This document shows positions 6,593 through 39,034 of a DNA stretch of 64,000 bases, piece after piece. Each line of letters opens with the position of its first letter. Position 1 is the first letter of the stretch. The notes beneath the pieces were generated by a model. The model saw nothing but the letters and a program-made list of their open reading frames with translations, made no database searches and was not told the DNA's origin. The stretch is from Alkalinema sp. FACHB-956. Lineage in GTDB: Bacteria; Cyanobacteriota; Cyanobacteriia; Leptolyngbyales; Leptolyngbyaceae. Both the position numbers and the translations under genes were made by a program. The stretch lies in assembly GCF_014697025.1 (NCBI RefSeq), contig NZ_JACJRC010000008.1:124001-188000 (forward strand). Reading direction: 5' to 3'.

Positions 6593-7360
6593 ATGACTGC
6601 TTGGTTGTTGGTTGCCTTAACTTTAGTGATTGCTTATTTGTTGGGTTCGATTCCGACGGGATATTTATTTGCCAAATGGCTGAAGGGTATTGATATCCGC
6701 CAAGTGGGATCGGGTTCGACGGGGGCCACCAATGTTTTACGCACCCTGGGCAAAAAAGCCGGGGCAACAGTTTTGGCGATCGATGTTCTGAAGGGGGTTT
6801 TAGCGGTTTGTGCGGTCTATGGACTGTATAAATGGCTTGCCCAGACGACCTGTCAGCTAGATGATGCAAGTTGGCAAGCCATTAACGAAGCGACCAGTGC
6901 GTTTAATGCGGGGCAAGGGGTGAATGCCACATTCCCTGAACCGCAGATGCAATGCCTGAAGTTATCTCTGGCAGCGCCTTGGGTCGTTGTTGGGGCGGGG
7001 CTGCTAGCGATTTTGGGCCATAGTAAGTCGGTGTGGTTGGGGTTCACGGGGGGAAAATCCGTGGCAACCAGTTTGGGCGTGCTGTTGGCGATGAGTCCGA
7101 TCGTGGGTTTGAGTGCCTTTGGAGTGTTTCTGATTTCAATCGCGCTGACTAAAATTGTTTCCATTAGCTCGATCGCGGCGGCTTTGGGGGCAATGATTTT
7201 GATGCTCGTCTTTCAGCAGCCGATCGCCTATTGTTTGTTGGCGATCGCAGGGGGAATTTATGTGATTTGGCGGCATCGATCGAACATTCAGCGATTGCTA
7301 GCGGGAACAGAACCAAAAATAGGACAAAAAACAAACGACAATGCTGAAACATCCACTTAG
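6593..7360 (+). CDS. plsY: Glycerol-3-phosphate acyltransferase PlsY
   Basis: Transfers an acyl group from acyl phosphate to glycerol 3-phosphate at the membrane, the first step of phosphatidate synthesis. The 255-residue protein carries family motif 1 (LLGSIPTGYLFAKWLKGIDI RQ) and GSGSTGATNVLRTLGKK with the conserved Ser/Gly/Asn residues, and later GFTGGKSVATSLGVLL. Several hydrophobic helices alternate with these loops. It is a little longer than bacterial PlsY (about 200) because of a periplasmic insertion near residues 80-125 (CQLDDASWQAINEATSAFNA), an insertion I consider usual in cyanobacterial versions. About 530 bp of non-coding DNA follow. Confidence 0.95.
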   Translation: MTAWLLVALTLVIAYLLGSIPTGYLFAKWLKGIDIRQVGSGSTGATNVLRTLGKKAGATVLAIDVLKGVLAVCAVYGLYKWLAQTTCQLDDASWQAINEATSAFNAGQGVNATFPEPQMQCLKLSLAAPWVVVGAGLLAILGHSKSVWLGFTGGKSVATSLGVLLAMSPIVGLSAFGVFLISIALTKIVSISSIAAALGAMILMLVFQQPIAYCLLAIAGGIYVIWRHRSNIQRLLAGTEPKIGQKTNDNAETST

Positions 7361-7900
7361 GATTGAAGGGTTATTTAAAGTTGCGGATACGGATAAAGGT
7401 GGGGGATAGGAGATGGGGATGTCAAAAATCGGTCAGTTCTCGATCGAACAATTAATCACAATGCCCACCCACACAGGTCTGCAACTTCGAGTCGAAGTCC
7501 TACCCACAGTAGCCTAAAGCCGCATCCATCCTTCGCGACCCGATCGCTTCCTGCAACCCCTGTTCTCGCTGGGTTGCCCACCCCCATCCGTCACCCAGAT
7601 CAGATCTCCGCATCGGGTCTCGGCTGTTTAAACCTTCCCAAAAATGTATCCGTAATTACCGCAATTTTTGCGTATAACCACGGATGAGTGATACGGATTA
7701 ATCTGTCATGATTAATTTCTATCGAAGAATTGAGTTACTCATCGGGCAAAATCTGGTCGAAAGCAATATTTTCACAGCTACCTACTCAGCAGCGATCGTT
7801 GCTGAGTTTTTTGAGGAAATTACGGAATTTTAGTGGATTGGGTTATTGGGATCTCTCGCGAGGGCAATTTAACACCAACAGCCTAAGGAGAACCGCCACT
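7361..7900. other. Spacer between plsY and the KGK gene
   Basis: About 540 bp without a supported gene. The downstream frame is open from 7730, but the added residues look random and the ribosome-binding site points to 7901. An AT-rich stretch at about 7640-7720 (with ATGATTAATTTC) is the likely promoter and leader region of the KGK gene; no clear -35/-10 pair stands out. Confidence 0.45.
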
Positions 7901-23410: not shown

Positions 23411-23515
23411 CAAGCAGGGCGAGAACAGAGATGCGATGATGGGAAGTTGCGCGAACCTGACTGCACACTCGTTCAACGTGAATTCAACCCCTTCGTTCCG
23501 ACCCTCAGCACGCTC

Positions 23516-24244
23516 ATGACTGCCCTACCGCACAATCTTGACCTCTGGCAAGCCACCCTTGACTGGTGCCCTAGCGATCGCCAACAGGAGCAATTTCAGG
23601 GGCTCTACGAAGCACTGTTGGCTGGAAACCAACGGCTGAATTTAACCCGCATTACCGAACCCACGGAGTTTTGGGAAAAGCACCTGTGGGATTCCCTAGG
23701 TGGCATTATTGACTACCTCCAGGATCCAACTCCAGCGATCGAGATGATTGACATTGGCACAGGCGGCGGCTTTCCAGGGGTACCGATCGCGATCGCGTGT
23801 CCCCATTGGCAAATCACACTTTTGGACTCTACCCGCAAAAAAATTACCTTTCTACAACAAATGACCCAGGAACTGGGCTTAACTCAAATCCACTGCGTGG
23901 TCGATCGGGTAGAGCAGGTAGGTCAGGATCCTAACCATCGGGAACGGTACGATTTGGCAACCTTGCGAGCGGTGGCTGCTGCTAATGTTTGCGCGGAGTA
24001 TGCCCTGCCGTTGGTCAAAGTTGGGGGTGAGGCCATTCTCTACCGAGGCCAGTGGACGATGGAGGAAGAAGCAGATTTAATTCGGGCGACGGAAAAATTG
24101 GGTGGAGATTTGATCGAAGTCGAAACCTTTGTCACACCGCTGAGCGAGGGCCAGCGCACCTGTCTACATCTGGCCAAAATCAAACCTACCCCCCCGGAAT
24201 TTCCCAGGGCGATCGGCATTCCCACTCAAAAACCACTCAGCTAA
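23516..24244 (+). CDS. rsmG: 16S rRNA (guanine-N7)-methyltransferase RsmG
   Basis: Methylates G527 of 16S rRNA. I start at MTALPHNLDLWQATLDWCPS (23516); the frame is open to 23447 without family support. SAM motif: MIDIGTGGGFPGVPIAIA. Upstream it has the conserved NQRLNLTRITEPTEFWEKHL WDSL, and downstream VVDRVEQVGQ and DLATLRAVAAANVCAEYALP LVKVGG. Length (242) is normal. It converges with the large DUF4347 gene. Confidence 0.95.
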   Translation: MTALPHNLDLWQATLDWCPSDRQQEQFQGLYEALLAGNQRLNLTRITEPTEFWEKHLWDSLGGIIDYLQDPTPAIEMIDIGTGGGFPGVPIAIACPHWQITLLDSTRKKITFLQQMTQELGLTQIHCVVDRVEQVGQDPNHRERYDLATLRAVAAANVCAEYALPLVKVGGEAILYRGQWTMEEEADLIRATEKLGGDLIEVETFVTPLSEGQRTCLHLAKIKPTPPEFPRAIGIPTQKPLS

Positions 24245-24330: not shown

Positions 24331-27300
24331 TTAAACCTGCAACGGCGATCGCAGCACACCACCACTAGCAACCCAGGGATCCGTTTGTTGTAAAGCAGAA
24401 GGTTGGAGAAGGGCGTTAGTCGATAGGGCGGTCGATCGTAGGGCACTAGAGCCAACCACCTTTGCCGTAGCAGTATCATCATTGACGATCGTGCCTGTAC
24501 CGCGACTAACGGCAAAGGTCGCATTGGTCAGGTTTGTCAAATTGACAGAGAAGGATTCATCCCCTTCCACCGTCCCATCCCCGCGAATCGGAACACTAAT
24601 GGTCTTGCGGGTTTCGCCAGGATTAAAGCTGAGGTTACCACTAATGGCAGTATAGTCACTCCCCGCGATCGCTTGTCCATTCACCGTTGCATACCTCAAC
24701 GAGACGGTTTTACTAGTTGCAGCGGTTAAACTCACGGTAAACACTGTATTCTTAGTTCCCGCATTACCTTCAGTAATTCGTACATTATTAATCGAAAGCT
24801 TGGGGGGAGTACTATCGTCATTGGTGATAGTAGCGATTCCCTTACTAGTACTTAAACTTGCATTAGTTGGACTACTAAGGTTAACCGAGAAGGTTTCATT
24901 AGCTTCTACCTGGGTATCTCCAGTAATTGCAATACTAATCGTCTTGCTAAGTTCACCAGCATTGAAACTTAAGGTACCTGTTTTGGCGGTATAGTCACTT
25001 CCTGCGGCAGCTGTACCATTAGCCGTTGCATACTTCACACTAATTGTTTGGGAACTGACAGCAGAGAGTTTAACCGTAAACACTGCATTCTTAGTCCCTA
25101 GGCTCCCCTCGGTCAAAGTGACATTATTGATAGACAAACTGGGGAGCGTGGTGGCCGTGTCATTATTGACGATCGTTCCCAGTCCCTGACTATCGGCGAT
25201 CGTGGCATTGCTCGCACCACTGAGATTGAGGAAGAACGACTCATTCGGTTCGACTGCCGTCTCACCTAGGACAGGAATCGCGATCGTTTTCGTCAGTTCG
25301 CCAGGATTAAAGCTAAGGGTACCGCTGGTGCTGGTGTAGTCAGACCCCGCCGTGGCCGTGTTATTGGCCGTGGCATAGTTGACTTTAACGAGTTGTGTGC
25401 TAGCTCCCGATAGGGTCACTGTAAAAACTGCATTTTGTGCGCCGGAATTGCCTTCAGTCACTTGCACATCATTGACCCGCAGACTGGGTAACGGTGAGCC
25501 ACCACTGCCAAATTCGACTGCGCCCACATCCGGCTGACTATCGCGAGTGAAGCCGAGTAAATCGGTAATCGGTGCCCCCGATACGCCAGTGTTAATGGCT
25601 GGACTACCCGCCAAGAGCGGATGGAACCAAAAATTTCCCGACTGCTGCAATGCGCCCAATTTCGGATCAACCGATCGCGCTCCCGAGGCCACACTCACAT
25701 CACTGGGGGGATATTGAATATTGCCGCCTTGGTCGGTAAATGTGCGGTTCACATGCTGTTGGATATTCCAGGGATTCGTCCCGTTATCAGCGGTATTGCG
25801 ATCGAAAATCGTATTTTTGAGACTGACGGAGGCGTCACTGGCTGCCACGATCGCGCCACCCACCCAGCCCGCATGGTTCAGAGCAAAGGTGACGTTGGTC
25901 AGGTTGGCCGAAGCATTGCTAAACAGTGCCAGGGCACCGCCATTTTTCACATAGTCATCAGCAGTCAACCCTTTAGCGGTTCGATTGCCTGAAAATGTAG
26001 TGTTGGTAATGGTGGAGTTGGTTTGATTAATCCAAACACCGCCCCCAGAGCCAGCGGAATAGTTGTCCACAAAGGCGGTATTGCGCAGAGTCAGGCTGCC
26101 ACTGCCTTTGCTGTTGCGGACATGGTCGATCGCACCGCCAGCGCCCATTTCACCCCCCGGCAAACCGATCGCTTGGTTGCTTTTGAAGCTGGAATTTTCG
26201 ATCGTCACCACATCTTCCGGATCATTGAATAGATAGAGTGCGCCTCCCGCTGATCGACTAATGTTATTTTCAAAGACGCTGTTTTTAATGGTGGTATTGT
26301 TATTCGCCCGATCGGTGAAGATTGCGCCCCCATAACCCCGCAGCGTCGGGTTGAGCGCCCCGGCACGATTATCCACCGTTGCCGCAGAGACATCGTTATT
26401 GAGGAACTTAGAATTTTCGATCGTGAGCTGACCGTTCAGGCTATTGATCGCACCCCCGTTAATACCTTTGTTCCCTGTAAATTCGCTATTGGTAATCGTC
26501 AAAGCCCCAGGGCCAAAGAAACCGATCGCCCCCGCTCCCCGTTCATCATTGCCTGCGGTTGCTTTGTTGCCCGTAAATTTGCTGCCTGTAACCGTCAGGC
26601 TGCCTTCATACTCGCTGTAAATAGCCCCACCGCCATTATCCGCTGTGTTATTGCTGAAGGTGACATTTTCAACGGTTAACTTGGCTTTGTGGGTCGTGGT
26701 AATTGCACCCCCGCGATCGCGGGTAAACCCATTGACCAACGCAAGATTTTTGACCGTCAAACTTGTGGGAAAATCCACATTGGAATTGAGTTGCAGAATG
26801 CGAGTGGCATTGTTACCACTGATTTTCAAGCCCGCTGCCGCCGCACCATCAATAATGAGGTTTTTACCCGCTGGAATGTCCAGTTGACTACTGAGGGTAA
26901 TGGTCTGATTTGCCAAGTTAGCAGCAAAGGTAATCGTATCTCCCGTTTTGGCGTTGGCGATCGCCTCCCGCAGTGACCCAGCACCGCTATTATTCGTATT
27001 GGTGACGGTGACCAAGGCCAATACCCCAGCATAGGACGCCATCGTTGCTGGATGTAGGATTGAGTCAAACGCAACGGCACCCAGCCGAGTTTCCAACTGC
27101 CAGTTCCCCGATCGATCGCCGTGGCCGGTTGGACTCACGGATGCTGCAATGTTCGCATCCGTCAACTGTTGAAACTTGTGCAGAAAAGCTTGGCCAACCT
27201 CTCCCTGGGCCACATTACAGCCGTACAGAACCCAATTGGGAGGCACTTCTGGATGACAGGCTGTAATGGCTGAAAAATATCCTGCATAGCGATCGAGGGT

Positions 27301-27693
27301 CTCTGCCATCACGATCGTATCGCCTAGAGATAATTGCCCAGGACTCCCATGGGCAAAGACATGAATCTCAGTCAATTCCGGATGGCTCACCAATGTTTGT
27401 AGGATTTGTGCAAATCCATCCTTGTGGGGATTGAGTAGTTGCACAGCAACATTGGGCAAAAGACCATTCAATAACGAGATGTAATCTTCTACTGCCGGAT
27501 CAATGAACGCGATCGTGGATTTGACTTGCTGAGAAACCCGTTGAGGGGGGGACTGAAGAGTTTCCGCTACCACCGGCTGGCAGGAGCTAGACTGAGAAAT
27601 TCTAGATTGAGAAATTCTAGATTGAGAAATTCTAGACTGAGATGTAGCAGTATTTGCCATTTGCGTGGATAACATTTGCGTATGAGCAATCAT
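24331..27693 (-). CDS. DUF4347 / beta-helix / Calx-beta surface protein, 1120 aa
   Basis: GGAGG six bases before the ATG at 27693 fixes the start (MIAHTQMLSTQMANTATSQS). Order: a short arm with RISQS repeats; a DUF4347 domain (about 60-205; IAFIDPAVEDYISLLNGL, VFAHGSPGQLSLGDT, YGCNVAQGEVG); a right-handed parallel beta-helix (about 235-690) with many NNxxxxGGAI turns such as NNTADNGGGAIYSEYEGSLT; then three Calx-beta domains (about 730-1070), each with VTEGNxG, YATxNGxAxAGSDY and TITNDD. There is no classical signal peptide, so type I-like secretion, known for many DUF4347 proteins, is plausible. It is probably an extracellular adhesin or matrix protein. It stands alone; no secretion gene is adjacent. 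Confidence 0.9.
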   Translation of the reverse strand: MIAHTQMLSTQMANTATSQSRISQSRISQSRISQSSSCQPVVAETLQSPPQRVSQQVKSTIAFIDPAVEDYISLLNGLLPNVAVQLLNPHKDGFAQILQTLVSHPELTEIHVFAHGSPGQLSLGDTIVMAETLDRYAGYFSAITACHPEVPPNWVLYGCNVAQGEVGQAFLHKFQQLTDANIAASVSPTGHGDRSGNWQLETRLGAVAFDSILHPATMASYAGVLALVTVTNTNNSGAGSLREAIANAKTGDTITFAANLANQTITLSSQLDIPAGKNLIIDGAAAAGLKISGNNATRILQLNSNVDFPTSLTVKNLALVNGFTRDRGGAITTTHKAKLTVENVTFSNNTADNGGGAIYSEYEGSLTVTGSKFTGNKATAGNDERGAGAIGFFGPGALTITNSEFTGNKGINGGAINSLNGQLTIENSKFLNNDVSAATVDNRAGALNPTLRGYGGAIFTDRANNNTTIKNSVFENNISRSAGGALYLFNDPEDVVTIENSSFKSNQAIGLPGGEMGAGGAIDHVRNSKGSGSLTLRNTAFVDNYSAGSGGGVWINQTNSTITNTTFSGNRTAKGLTADDYVKNGGALALFSNASANLTNVTFALNHAGWVGGAIVAASDASVSLKNTIFDRNTADNGTNPWNIQQHVNRTFTDQGGNIQYPPSDVSVASGARSVDPKLGALQQSGNFWFHPLLAGSPAINTGVSGAPITDLLGFTRDSQPDVGAVEFGSGGSPLPSLRVNDVQVTEGNSGAQNAVFTVTLSGASTQLVKVNYATANNTATAGSDYTSTSGTLSFNPGELTKTIAIPVLGETAVEPNESFFLNLSGASNATIADSQGLGTIVNNDTATTLPSLSINNVTLTEGSLGTKNAVFTVKLSAVSSQTISVKYATANGTAAAGSDYTAKTGTLSFNAGELSKTISIAITGDTQVEANETFSVNLSSPTNASLSTSKGIATITNDDSTPPKLSINNVRITEGNAGTKNTVFTVSLTAATSKTVSLRYATVNGQAIAGSDYTAISGNLSFNPGETRKTISVPIRGDGTVEGDESFSVNLTNLTNATFAVSRGTGTIVNDDTATAKVVGSSALRSTALSTNALLQPSALQQTDPWVASGGVLRSPLQV
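27587..27641 (-). repeat. In-frame tandem repeat, about 4 x 15 bp
   Basis: CTAGATTGAGAAATT units (plus-strand reading) encode RISQS three times, plus a partial copy, near the N-terminus of the DUF4347 protein. As in the DUF3086 gene, a multiple of three keeps the frame. Confidence 0.95.
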
Positions 27694-27940
27694 AAAAATC
27701 CTCCAAAACAGATGGGGCAAACTGTTCTCGGAATACACTGCCAAAGCAGCAAGATAGACACTAGGATTTGTGCTGAGCCCGACAATTTTGGTCATAGCTC
27801 AGCCATTGCTAGAACATCAGTCCACCGCAAGTAAATCGCGTTCCTGTGAATCTAGCAATTGGATTGATTTAGATTAAAATTGAATGACTGTTTCAAGCAT
27901 GAGTACCAGAGTAAATTTTGACTACTATGAACTCACAGCA

Positions 27941-28018
27941 GACTTAAAGAAATAGGTAGACTTAAAGAAATAGGCAGGCTTAAAGAAATAGGGTAAGAAA
28001 TCGTAGGATAAGAAATAG
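27941..28018 (+). repeat. Tandem array, 3 x 18 bp plus degenerate copies
   Basis: GACTTAAAGAAATAGGTA, then the same with CA at the end, then GGCTTAAAGAAATAGGGT, followed by two decayed AAGAAAT copies. Confidence 0.95.
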
Positions 28019-28050
28019 GAACCAGTAATTTCTGGAGACCCATTCTGATA

Positions 28051-28135
28051 GCGATTCTGGCTCAAGCGGTTCTGGCTTAAGCAATTCTGGCTTATAGTTG
28101 CTCGACTTATAGTTGCTCGACTTATAGTTGCTTGA
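28051..28135 (+). repeat. Two abutting arrays of 15-bp units
   Basis: 28051-28095 holds three units on the theme GCGATTCTGGCTCAA. 28091-28135 holds three units of CTTATAGTTGCTCGA. The second array starts inside the last unit of the first, so two successive expansions with different registers seem to have occurred. Confidence 0.94.
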
Positions 28136-29070
28136 GCAGATATACGTTCTGACTGATGTACATGCTGACGGATATATGTTTTGGCTCGTGTTGGTGATTC
28201 AAGTTAAGTTACGTGCCATGCATATCCATCTTGTCAAATTACTATCAGGCATGACATCACTCATTAAATAACAAGAATTTCATTATCTGGACGGGAAGTT
28301 TAAATCTGCCTCGGAACAATGCGGATTTATAACTTTCTTGACCATATTCTTTCACCTTACAAAAACAATCAAGGTGGGATGATTGGTTCAATTTGTTGCT
28401 GGAATTCAAGATTCGGTAGATATTTCCGCAATCAAACTACAACCCACCCTATTGAATTAACGAATGGAACGTGTTGGTAGAACCCTAATGATGACGGTAA
28501 ACCTCTGTGCTTTCTAGTAGGCCCCTGATGTTGGCAGAACCCTAATGATGAATAGAACCCGTACTTGCTAGACCCCGAGAAGTTACAACACCAATCGGTG
28601 GTCTGAAATGATCTGAAATGACTGGTAGACGTTTCTGTGCTTGTCTGAATGACTGTTTCTGAATGACTTATCTTGCTTGTCAGCCTACAGGGTCAGCCCT
28701 CGTGAAATCACTGAGAAACTGCCAGTTTTCTGTCTGTCCACTATGGGAGGCTGATTTTGTCATAGGGCTAACTTAGTTACTATTCAAACAAACTAATCTC
28801 TCAACAGTAACTTCTGTCGTGATTCTAAAGGCCAACCCTGAAGCCAGTCATCTGCCATTTCACCCCTGCACGATCGCAGTGACAGTTACCCTGGTGTCTA
28901 CTGATCAGAGTCTCCATCCAACCACAATCTCTAGGGACGACCACGTCTACAAGTCCCCATCCACACCCCCTTATCCCAAGGAACTAGCGGTTCACACAAA
29001 ACCTGAAATTTTATCCGGAATAGGGGGAGAGGCAGGGAAATACGTCAATGTAAGATGCACTCTGACAGCG

Positions 29071-29098
29071 CCCCTAGTTCTACTAGGGGTTTTTATTT
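29071..29098 (+). terminator. Perfect intrinsic terminator with no upstream gene
   Basis: CCCCTAGT (29071-29078) pairs exactly with ACTAGGGG (29082-29089) across a 3-nt loop, followed by TTTTTATTT. Orientation is plus strand. No gene lies upstream on that strand for more than 4 kb (rsmG ends at 24244). Confidence 0.88.
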
Positions 29099-30442
29099 GA
29101 GCACTAAGAATTTAATGACTACGTAGAATACTGACACTGTGAGTTGTAAGAGGGCGATCGGGATCCCATATTTCAGAAAGGTTCGAAACGACATGCCCCG
29201 ACCATGCTGCTGGGCAATGCCTGCGGCCACAATGTTGGATGATGCCCCCACCAAGGTGCCATTTCCCCCCAAGGTTGCTCCAAACATCATGGCGTAAAAC
29301 AACGGCAAGACCTCTGGCGGGAACTGGCCTGCGTAGTCTTTCATTGCCATTTCTGGGGCAATTAAGCCCACTGTGACGAGATACTGCTTCAGCAATGGCA
29401 CCATGGCAACCACTAGGGGAATATTGGGAACCACGCTGGAAATAATCCCAACTGCGAATGTCAGCAAAATACAGCCCAGAACGATATTCTTGCCAAGCAC
29501 GATCGCTAGAAATCCTGACAAACTTTGAATGACTCCTGTTTTTTCTAACCCCCCAATCAGAACAAAAATGCACATGAAAAAGATCAGGGTGCTCCAGTCC
29601 ACATCTCGTAAAATATTTTCTAGACGATCGAGGCGGCTATGGTGGGCCAAGAGCAGAGCCAGTGCCGCTCCGAGCAGTGCCACCGTCGCTGGACTAATCG
29701 GCGTCGGCAAATTTTCACCAATCACAAAGAAAATCAGAACAAACGCCACAATAAGCGCACCGATCGCCAAAACACGAGGATGATTAATTTGAGGATGGGG
29801 CAAGTTTTCTAAGCTATCCAATTTTTTGCGCCAAATTCGCCGAAACAAAATTGGTAAAGTGACAACGACGCTTACAACCGCAAGTAATCCCCCAAAACTG
29901 AGGCGTAGGAGATAGTCCGTAAAACTCAAATTAATTGCATCCCCTACAATAAAAGTCGCCGGATCCCCCACTAGGGTTAATAGACCAGAACTGTTTGCCA
30001 CGAAGACCAGCAGAATTAACAGGGGAATGAAATCGACTCCCACTTCCTCGGCGATCGGGGGAATCAACGGAGCAATCAACATCACCGTTGTAGCATTGGG
30101 CAATACTGCACAAATCGGCGTCGTAATTGCTGTAATCCCTAACAATAGGCGCTTTCCCTCGCCCTTAGCCAGTAACACAATTTGGTTACCGAGATATTCA
30201 AAAATTCCGGTGGGTTCAAAGGATCGAACCAACACCATCACCCCAAAAAATAAAGCCAAGGTGCCATGACTCCGACCGATATAGTCGATCGCCTCTGGCA
30301 GGGTCATCACATTCCCGATAATCAACAGGAGTGCACCACATAACGCCGCGATCGTCATATGAGTCCACTCAGTCATGACTAAAACAATGACTCCTAAAAA
30401 GATGGCTGTTGCAAAACTTGCCTGCCAAGACTCCATACCCAC
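29093..30442 (-). CDS. ArsB/NhaD (SLC13-like) family transporter, 449 aa
   Basis: A 12-helix-type membrane transporter of the ion transporter superfamily. Motifs include EAIDYIGRSHGTLALFFGVM VLVRSFEPTG, PNATTVMLIAPLIPPI, VGDPATFIVGDA and, near the end, GATLGGNGTLVGASSNIVAA, the duplicated hairpin signatures of ArsB/P-protein/NhaD-type carriers. Residues about 205-225 form a basic loop between the halves (FRRIWRKKLDSLENLPH). Substrate (Na+/H+, arsenite, dicarboxylate or sulphate) cannot be told from sequence. Length is normal. It is alone on its strand; no arsenic genes are nearby. Confidence 0.88.
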   Translation of the reverse strand: MGMESWQASFATAIFLGVIVLVMTEWTHMTIAALCGALLLIIGNVMTLPEAIDYIGRSHGTLALFFGVMVLVRSFEPTGIFEYLGNQIVLLAKGEGKRLLLGITAITTPICAVLPNATTVMLIAPLIPPIAEEVGVDFIPLLILLVFVANSSGLLTLVGDPATFIVGDAINLSFTDYLLRLSFGGLLAVVSVVVTLPILFRRIWRKKLDSLENLPHPQINHPRVLAIGALIVAFVLIFFVIGENLPTPISPATVALLGAALALLLAHHSRLDRLENILRDVDWSTLIFFMCIFVLIGGLEKTGVIQSLSGFLAIVLGKNIVLGCILLTFAVGIISSVVPNIPLVVAMVPLLKQYLVTVGLIAPEMAMKDYAGQFPPEVLPLFYAMMFGATLGGNGTLVGASSNIVAAGIAQQHGRGMSFRTFLKYGIPIALLQLTVSVFYVVIKFLVLK

Positions 30443-30574
30443 ACCCTTGAGGTAAATTACCTCAGTATTCTAGGGTGAAACTGATTAGGCCAATGGTTAT
30501 CCCCATCTCTCCACTCCCGCAGAACTTTCTAGCAAAAGCGCAGGCAGACAATCCGTCAAATCCAGCAAGCAAGA

Positions 30575-30648
30575 CAATCTAGGTCAGTTAAGTCATCAAT
30601 CTAGGCCAGTTCAGTCAATCTAGACCAGTTCAGTCAATCTAGGCAAGT
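30575..30648 (+). repeat. Tandem array, 4 x 19-22 bp
   Basis: Units built on CAATCTAGGCCAGTTCAGT (the first is three bases longer) lie in the 345-bp divergent spacer between the transporter gene and the FIST gene. The rest of that spacer carries no gene. Confidence 0.94.
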
Positions 30649-30787
30649 CAACGGTATACTGCCTCCAGGGGTAGAATTAACCATGGATTCAGCAGATTTA
30701 CGAAGATAGGATCCCAATTCATCCGGGAAAATTAAGAATGCGCGGGTAAAGATCCCATTAACTATCAGCTTGCTGTGGCACCGAGTT

Positions 30788-31921
30788 ATGAAAATTGAGC
30801 AATGTCAATGGACACAACACAATGGATGGCATCTGCATGCACCGGGTAAACTAGCAGAGCAGGCTCAACTCCTTTTGGTATTTGGAAATTTGCAGGATCA
30901 CGCTAATCTTCTCAACGATTTGCAAGCGATTTATCCGAATGCCTATTGTTTGGGGTGTTCAACCGCTGGGGAAATCTACGACACCCAGGTTACAGATAAT
31001 GCTCTCGTCATCACCGCGATCGCCTTTGAAGCCACCCAGGTCAAAAGTTTCAAAATTCATCTCGACCCGGATGACAATAGTTTTCAGGCAGGCGATCGCT
31101 TAGGTAGCCAACTCGACACAGAAGGACTGGCCCATCTCTTTGTTCTCTCCGATGGTCTACAGGTCAATGGCAGTGACCTCGTCCGGGGCTTGTCGCAGCA
31201 CTTACCCATCGGAGTTGCCGTCACGGGAGGCTTATCCGCCGATGGGGCCAACTTCCGCCAAACTTGGGTCATGCTGAATCACGAAATCCAGCAAGGTATG
31301 GTAGCCGCGATCGGGCTCTACGGCGATCGCCTGAAGGTTGGATACGGTTCTCGGGGTGGGTTTACCCCCTTTGGCCCAGAACGAGTCATTACTCAGTCAG
31401 ACGGGAATGTATTGTACAAACTCGATGATCAATCCGCTTTAGAACTCTATCGAAACTATCTCGGAGAACATGCAGAGAACCTACCGGCCAGCGGCTTACT
31501 GTTCCCCTTAAGTTTACAAATTACTAACCACAAATACCCCTTGGTGCGCACCCTCTTAGCCATCAACGAAGCCGATCAAAGCATGACCTTTGCGGGAGAT
31601 GTTCCCCTGGGATCAACTGTGCGGCTGATGCAAGCCAGCTTTGCCAATCTCACCCATGCCGCCGTCCAAGCGGCAGAAGCTGCTCAGCAAGCCTTGGGGG
31701 AACCGCAACCGGAACTCGCCATTTTAATCAGTTGCGTCGGTCGCAAGCTACTGCTCAAACAACGCATTGAAGAAGAGGTTGAAGAGGTTCGGGAGGTTCT
31801 AGGCGAGAAGACTGTCTTAACAGGATTTTATTCCTATGGTGAGATTTGTCCCTGTGCCCTAGGGCTCCCAGCCGAGTTACATAATCAAACCATGACAATT
31901 ACAACCTTTGCGGAAATTTAG
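30788..31921 (+). CDS. FIST domain sensor protein, 377 aa
   Basis: FIST N and C domains are putative sensory domains that bind small ligands, possibly amino acids. The start is MKIEQCQWTQHNGWHLHAPG (30788). FIST-N signatures: LLVFGNLQDHANLLNDLQAI YPNAYCLGCSTAGEI, 'HLFVLSDGLQVNGSDLVRGL', VAVTGGLSADGANF, and then 'GDRLKVGYGSRGGFTPFGPE RVITQSDGNVLYKLD'. FIST-C: 'ALELYRNYLGEHAENLPASG', AILISCVGRKLLLKQR, and the terminal VLTGFYSYGEICPCALG. No signal peptide, so cytoplasmic. The kinase gene starts 48 bp downstream, and the two surely form one signalling unit. Confidence 0.94.
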   Translation: MKIEQCQWTQHNGWHLHAPGKLAEQAQLLLVFGNLQDHANLLNDLQAIYPNAYCLGCSTAGEIYDTQVTDNALVITAIAFEATQVKSFKIHLDPDDNSFQAGDRLGSQLDTEGLAHLFVLSDGLQVNGSDLVRGLSQHLPIGVAVTGGLSADGANFRQTWVMLNHEIQQGMVAAIGLYGDRLKVGYGSRGGFTPFGPERVITQSDGNVLYKLDDQSALELYRNYLGEHAENLPASGLLFPLSLQITNHKYPLVRTLLAINEADQSMTFAGDVPLGSTVRLMQASFANLTHAAVQAAEAAQQALGEPQPELAILISCVGRKLLLKQRIEEEVEEVREVLGEKTVLTGFYSYGEICPCALGLPAELHNQTMTITTFAEI

Positions 31922-38905: not shown

Positions 38906-39034
38906 ACAATCAAGGGGTCAACGTTCAAGAGATCCGCTAAGAGATTAATTCCGATGAGAATCGTTTCTGTAAGATTCACTCTGTGAGCAATTGTTGACTT
39001 GAGACCAATAAAACCTACCGATCGAGGAGTTTTT

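Follow-up and report, generated by a model that had tools for sequence, protein, structure and literature searches.

A Terminator in a Gene-Free Spacer of an Alkalinema Genome Probably Ends a Small RNA Gene Related to NsiR1

What does a strong intrinsic terminator end when no gene lies in front of it? The window analyzed here, a 64-kb stretch (64,000 nt) of Alkalinema DNA, raises this question at 29071-29094 (+), where the initial annotation had described a perfect 8-bp stem, a 3-nt loop, and T5 at the end of a 1.4-kb gene-free spacer. The hairpin is as described: CCCCTAGT-TCT-ACTAGGGG occupies 29071-29089 on the plus strand and is followed by TTTTTATTTG, the whole stretch covering 29071-29099, and an outer G-U pair extends the stem to 9 pairs. 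The site has what defines an intrinsic terminator, a GC-rich stem-loop with a U-tract immediately after it. The spacer is also real, with a length of about 1.3 kb (27796-29092) rather than 1.4 kb, and it is flanked by two minus-strand genes, encoding a DUF4347/Calx-beta protein and a CitMHS/ArsB-type transporter. A strict terminator scan of both strands of the 64 kb (stem of at least 8 perfect pairs, loop of 3-8, U-rich tail) found three sites, compared with none in each of eight first-order Markov sequences of 64 kb. A lenient hairpin scan of 26000-31000 carried no information, giving 4 sites where shuffles gave 5.0 on average. Another of the strict sites, at 7784-7807 (+), has an 8-bp stem and T5. 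The plus-strand ORF at 6593-7360 ends over 400 nt before this site, which falls within the first part of a TTG-initiated frame and is possibly another orphan.

No U-run follows the hairpin at 29071-29089 on the minus strand, and the hairpin is therefore oriented to end a plus-strand RNA. Beginning 2-3 nt past the stop codon of the convergent minus-strand transporter gene, it might be taken for the terminator of that gene; we rejected this reading because of the missing U-run, and tblastn against the relatives' loci, of 3-8 kb each, gives no match to the transporter, leaving this reading with next to no probability.

At gathering thresholds, the Rfam matches in the window are limited to three tRNAs. 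When 27700-29200 was searched permissively, NsiR1 (RF02399) matched 29048-29097, end to end in the model, with 31.3 bits (E of 6.9e-4 in the whole-genome search); a mir-3099 match from a permissive search (E 2.8) was dismissed as being at chance level. The score lies below the RF02399 gathering score of 39, and in place of the exact canonical 5' core GGTAGATGCACCCTGA the window has GTAAGATGCACTCTGA, with one extra base and one substitution, so we call the copy NsiR1-like and do not file it as NsiR1. Its core shares AGATGCACYCTGA with canonical NsiR1, its terminator comes directly after a short linker as in NsiR1, and 29048-29098 folds with -16.1 kcal/mol (z of -3.07). The motif of the own DIF1 promoter that characterizes NsiR1 is present as well, as an exact TCCGGA at the canonical distance; motif and spacing agree with a DIF+ promoter acting from a presumed start site. 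The likeness to the DIF+ (DIF1) class, for which the accessible text of PMC6133370 gives TCCGGA at -35 and a -10 other than TATAAT, is one of the motif only, the window having GGAAAT at -10. At this place GGAATA is found in four of five relatives and CGGATA in the fifth (G007), and the commonest bases in 36 canonical contexts are GGAAGA. Since GGAAAT departs from the relatives, the window copy may be weak or decaying.

Judged from its sequence, the hairpin is very probably the intrinsic terminator of a small RNA gene of about 50 nt, a diverged sibling of NsiR1 (Table 1). The initial annotation had suggested a non-coding RNA ending at about 29094, and an end at about 29094-29097 is supported by the end of the Rfam NsiR1 match at 29097 and by DIF1 at the NsiR1 distance. 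Its statement that no gene precedes the terminator is to be amended, as the missing gene would be the short RNA itself; the promoter and the kinship with the NsiR1 family go beyond what it had seen. An unlikely alternative, to which we still allow some weight, is a decayed NsiR1 copy, a former sibling RNA in which the terminator and part of the promoter survive while expression in this genome has been lost. The score below gathering, GGAAAT rather than GGAATA, and a still more degraded core-like stretch at 38959-38983 would fit decay, whereas the intact TCCGGA, core, and terminator, and a core that shows no difference from copies in two other genera across 14 consecutive columns, argue against it. 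The stretch at 38959-38983 (+), CTGTAAGATTCACTCTG, scores 12.9 bits with the R1 model of the variant block, has TCCGCT at the -37 position, and shows no terminator by eye.

Table 1. Features at and around the putative small RNA gene in the window
Feature	Position	Strand	Basis or remark
rsmG	23447..24244	+	Putative RNA start, ~29048, lies 4.8 kb downstream
DUF4347/Calx-beta protein gene	24331..27795	-	Pfam; separates rsmG from the RNA in the window
DIF1 (DIF+) motif TCCGGA	29014..29019	+	-35 region; 37 nt before the T of TAAGATG
-10-like element GGAAAT	29036..29041	+	Read from alignment; putative -10
NsiR1-like small RNA, ~50 nt (predicted)	29048..29097	+	cmscan; 5' end placed from the Rfam model, +/- ~2 nt
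Conserved core GTAAGATGCACTCTGAC	29050..29066	+	Alignment of variant copies; likely base-pairing segment
Probable intrinsic terminator of the NsiR1-like RNA	29070..29094	+	Hairpin scans, Markov control, fold
CitMHS/ArsB-type transporter gene	29093..30442	-	Convergent; stop codon overlaps the U-tract region

NsiR1 of Nostoc is described as a heterocyst-specific regulator RNA. NCBI places Alkalinema in the Leptolyngbyaceae. This family is not known to form heterocysts. In Nostoc sp. PCC 7120, according to the available part of PMC9045159, NsiR1 is about 60 nt long and is encoded upstream of hetF by a tandem array of 12 copies, every one with its DIF1 promoter; expression depends on HetR, and the RNA represses hetF and the hetP-like gene alr3234. 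The window RNA resembles this NsiR1 (RF02399) in having DIF1 at the same distance, AGATGCACYCTGA near its 5' end, a short linker, a GC-rich terminator, and several related copies per genome. Besides its score below gathering, it differs in an extra A (GTAAGATG rather than GGTAGATG), a C to T change in the core, an ACAGYGCC-type linker, a host lineage without known heterocysts, and its occurrence as a single dispersed copy away from hetF, its neighbors being the transporter and DUF4347 protein genes and not a divergent hetF. RNA162 of Limnospira indica PCC 8005, which we liken to it by description from the accessible portion of PMC8400943, is likewise an NsiR1-type RNA in a non-heterocystous host.

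Canonical copies exist in the same genome. A whole-genome Rfam search gave four over-threshold NsiR1 copies (44.8-54.7 bits) and one further place of 33.0 bits with a canonical core. These copies and those of relatives are built alike: TCCGGA or a close variant of it comes first, then a spacer and a GA-rich -10, next TGGTAGATGCACCCTGA, and finally a short linker leading into a terminator. Of 36 distinct canonical contexts, 23 have an exact TCCGGA at -37/-38 from the T of TAGATGCAC, and 35 have the motif when one mismatch is allowed; the window has it exact at -37. Both the exact core and DIF1 (at most one mismatch) are present in all 30 best-scoring loci, taken one per genome. Below threshold, at E up to 1, the NsiR1 model also matches 8 of 14 or 10 of 14 unrelated control genomes, none of them over the cut-off; such matches are weak alone, and we therefore rely on the promoter, the orthologues, and the over-threshold counts.

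One canonical copy of this genome (C2:3156) is divergent from the gene of a 902-aa CHAT protein, a HetF homologue whose match to NCBIfam HetF is almost full-length and scores 824 bits, below the cut-off of 1200 set for that model. The same arrangement recurs in other genomes: at least 9 of the 30 best-copy loci have a close HetF homologue (at least 57% identity) divergent from NsiR1, and one more has a weak homologue, a count that is a lower bound because it was made in flanks of at most 1.5 kb with the 902-aa protein as query. The nine loci belong to families f1, f17, f18, f20, f25, and f28. All four tandem arrays chosen from f32, which we infer from its top NsiR1 scores and long arrays to be a family of heterocyst formers, are also divergent from a HetF homologue (~50-54% identity in the N-terminal half). 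Closely spaced copies occur in other families too, f1 included. Close and evenly stepped copies in genomes of the family of the window itself, in G004 contig 14 (272-588), G060 contig 448 (9349-9680), and G012 contig 23, among others, show that tandem NsiR1 arrays are not confined to f32.

The variant form was sought in 58 genomes by DNA search, where 33 genomes gave a match at E up to 1, mostly by chance, and five besides the genome of the window (G031, G034, G015, G007, and G024) matched through the core at E < 1e-4. Conservation upstream of the hairpin, where the initial annotation had suggested a covariance search in relatives, is seen in these five, which keep the promoter motif and the core and each have a terminator-like hairpin of their own. 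Promoter and core are common to six genomes in three genera. TCCGGA is invariant in all six variant copies, 20 of 23 columns are invariant over 29050-29072 compared with 0 of 16 just after TCCGGA, and the 14 consecutive columns 29050-29063 are invariant in 6/6. The terminator sequences differ among the relatives, each being predicted to fold as a stem near a U-tract; for G034, G015, and G024, half of the six RNAs, the predicted fold does not clearly surpass that of shuffled sequences (z of -1.15 to -1.49). The set of six omits G010, which shares TCCGGA and the core and not the linker; G020 (L008), with a core-like stretch and no TCCGGA in the preceding 65 nt; and G047 (L011, E 0.0475), a probable chance match.

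The R1 model matches 8 of 242 genomes of the class at E up to 0.001: five with at least 55 bits, G010 with 29 bits, and two canonical copies with 23.4 bits (G050 and G201). Because the five strongest, that of the own genome included, are all in the training set, they show the rarity of the variant and add no new support. An exact-pattern scan of one genome per species for 84,980 species, which may omit the records of the own genome and which did not return the copy of G007 that fits the pattern, gave four records, all of them cyanobacterial MAGs and one named Alkalinema sp.

In four genomes of one genus, the variant RNA adjoins rsmG, directly downstream and on the same strand. The distance from the end of the rsmG frame to the core A is 46, 46, and 79 nt in three of them, and in the fourth (G015) 73 nt separate the core from the end of the rsmG tblastn match; in G007 the variant copy and rsmG are on different contigs. 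Of 30 rsmG loci in the family, the 25 that remain besides these four and that of the window have no such core with TCCGGA in the stretch of up to 1.5 kb covered; four of these 25 (L071, L073, L074, and L078) contain the AGATGCAC string with no TCCGGA in the preceding stretch examined. In the three relatives whose ORFs were read, no DUF4347 gene separates rsmG from the RNA, and tblastn gives no match to it in the loci of the four relatives.

These comparisons bear on two further readings. The open frame that the initial annotation had placed at 28819-29100 does traverse the hairpin, and with these 93 codons and the plus-strand rsmG upstream the hairpin might end a long plus-strand transcript, by read-through or from a decayed spacer gene, with no discrete RNA. 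We consider this very improbable, since a 3.5-kb minus-strand gene intervenes and it is the promoter motif and core that are conserved in relatives, while terminator sequences differ. The conserved block might instead encode a tiny peptide in the frame V-R-C-T-L-T, which is open across the core in all seven copies examined, is preceded by GTG two codons before it in four of the seven, and in the window has a further possible opening at 28819, a GTG lying 77 codons upstream. However, in the other three of the seven (the window, G007, and G010), no in-frame start occurs within 40 codons or before a stop, which leaves this reading unsupported, and the available text of PMC9045159 describes the parent NsiR1 as non-coding and acting by pairing; a peptide is hardly to be expected here. 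In the rest of the spacer, upstream of ~29048, we found nothing that ties it to the short RNA. Short tandem repeats of different units (three copies, 15-18 nt spacing) and a 23-nt pair are seen at 27587-28551, a region that takes in part of the spacer together with the start of the DUF4347 gene.

For the small RNA that we favor, a mode of action can be proposed by analogy. Under nitrogen stress, the HetR/HetZ pathway would presumably switch on its transcription, and its weakly structured 5' core AGAUGCACUCUGA would pair with translation-start regions and repress them as Nostoc NsiR1 does. The C to U change in the core would still permit G-U pairing with anything that the parent core pairs with; owing to the shared AGATGCACYCTGA, an uninterrupted run of 13 pairs, one of them G-U, is possible between the variant and the antisense of a canonical core. 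Further or different targets would come within reach through the added A and the ACAGCGCC extension. The hetF leader would be among the pairing partners if it spans the divergent NsiR1 copy: the predicted duplex of the variant with the hetF leader of its own genome has -23.9 kcal/mol, compared with -43.9 for the copy encoded there, and falls to -12.9 if the leader stops short of that copy. Since -23.9 does not stand clear of the duplex background (mean -17.2, sd 3.1, lowest 1% at about -25.1 in 508 window segments, the complement of the variant itself included), this pairing is suggestive only and not decisive. A scan of six genomes for near-perfect complements found no convincing trans target; three single-mismatch complement sites besides the RNA genes, one of them at 38970-38983 of the window, were dropped as chance.

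We compared the occurrence of NsiR1, counted at threshold, and HetR, counted by HetR_C, in 242 cyanobacterial genomes drawn evenly from the class. The results show that 120 genomes have both, 4 have only NsiR1, 2 have only HetR, and 116 have neither (NsiR1 in 124, HetR_C in 122), with both present in 19 families and NsiR1 found in 120 of the 122 HetR genomes; related genomes are not independent, and the Fisher value for this co-occurrence is not to be read as a probability. Among 97 relatives, 72 have over-threshold NsiR1 and 69 have HetR_C, and all 69 are, by eye, among the 72. The genomes with NsiR1 only are G040, G054, G128, which is 62% complete, and G206, which is in ~1200 contigs. A search with the full HetR protein gave no match in G040, G054, and G062. 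G040 and G054 (families f7 and f21), with NsiR1 over threshold and HetR found neither by HMM nor by full protein, are candidates for loss of HetR with retention of the RNA. The two HetR-only genomes, G190 and G254 (family f37), have HetR_C matches that rank among the weaker ones (5.8e-21 and 2.1e-19). The genome of the window has hetR and a nifH match over the cut-off.

We tentatively propose that NsiR1 may be no heterocyst invention and may instead be ancestral, an RNA made as an output of the HetR circuit in filamentous cyanobacteria. Its link to hetF would then be older than heterocysts, lineages that retain HetR would retain the RNA as well, and the window sibling may now form a separate subfamily with its own targets in one Leptolyngbya-like lineage. 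If this is true, HetR would act in non-heterocystous filaments at least partly through NsiR1-type RNAs, and cell division, reached via HetF, may be one of the processes affected. PMC11298460, in its accessible part, calls it a mystery what HetR and PatX do in filaments that lack heterocysts; it also reports that effects of PatX on transcription in Leptolyngbya BL0902 are basically HetR-independent, which speaks against a simple circuit of HetR and PatX there. The co-occurrence of NsiR1 with HetR and its hetF linkage beyond f32 give a concrete candidate for the RNA output of HetR, measurable in the existing Leptolyngbya hetR and patX deletion strains, and the window variant, a naturally occurring sibling whose core is altered, would suit studies of how NsiR1-type RNAs divide their targets.

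In the literature searched, whose scope excluded the earliest NsiR1 papers, we found no account of NsiR1 tracking HetR across genomes and one report of a non-heterocystous NsiR1, in Limnospira (PMC8400943, as far as its available text goes); the earliest papers may mention others. Homologues of sRNAs were mapped over 89 genomes, non-heterocystous ones included, in Figure 2 of PMC4734099, as described in the portion of that article available. A PatX-like ORF with eight RGSGR motifs and a signal-like N-terminus was also observed in the genome of the window, in G000 contig 3 (L106:3663-3298, -). It lies upstream of hetR on the same strand, with TCCTGA, one mismatch from DIF1, ~60 nt before its ATG.
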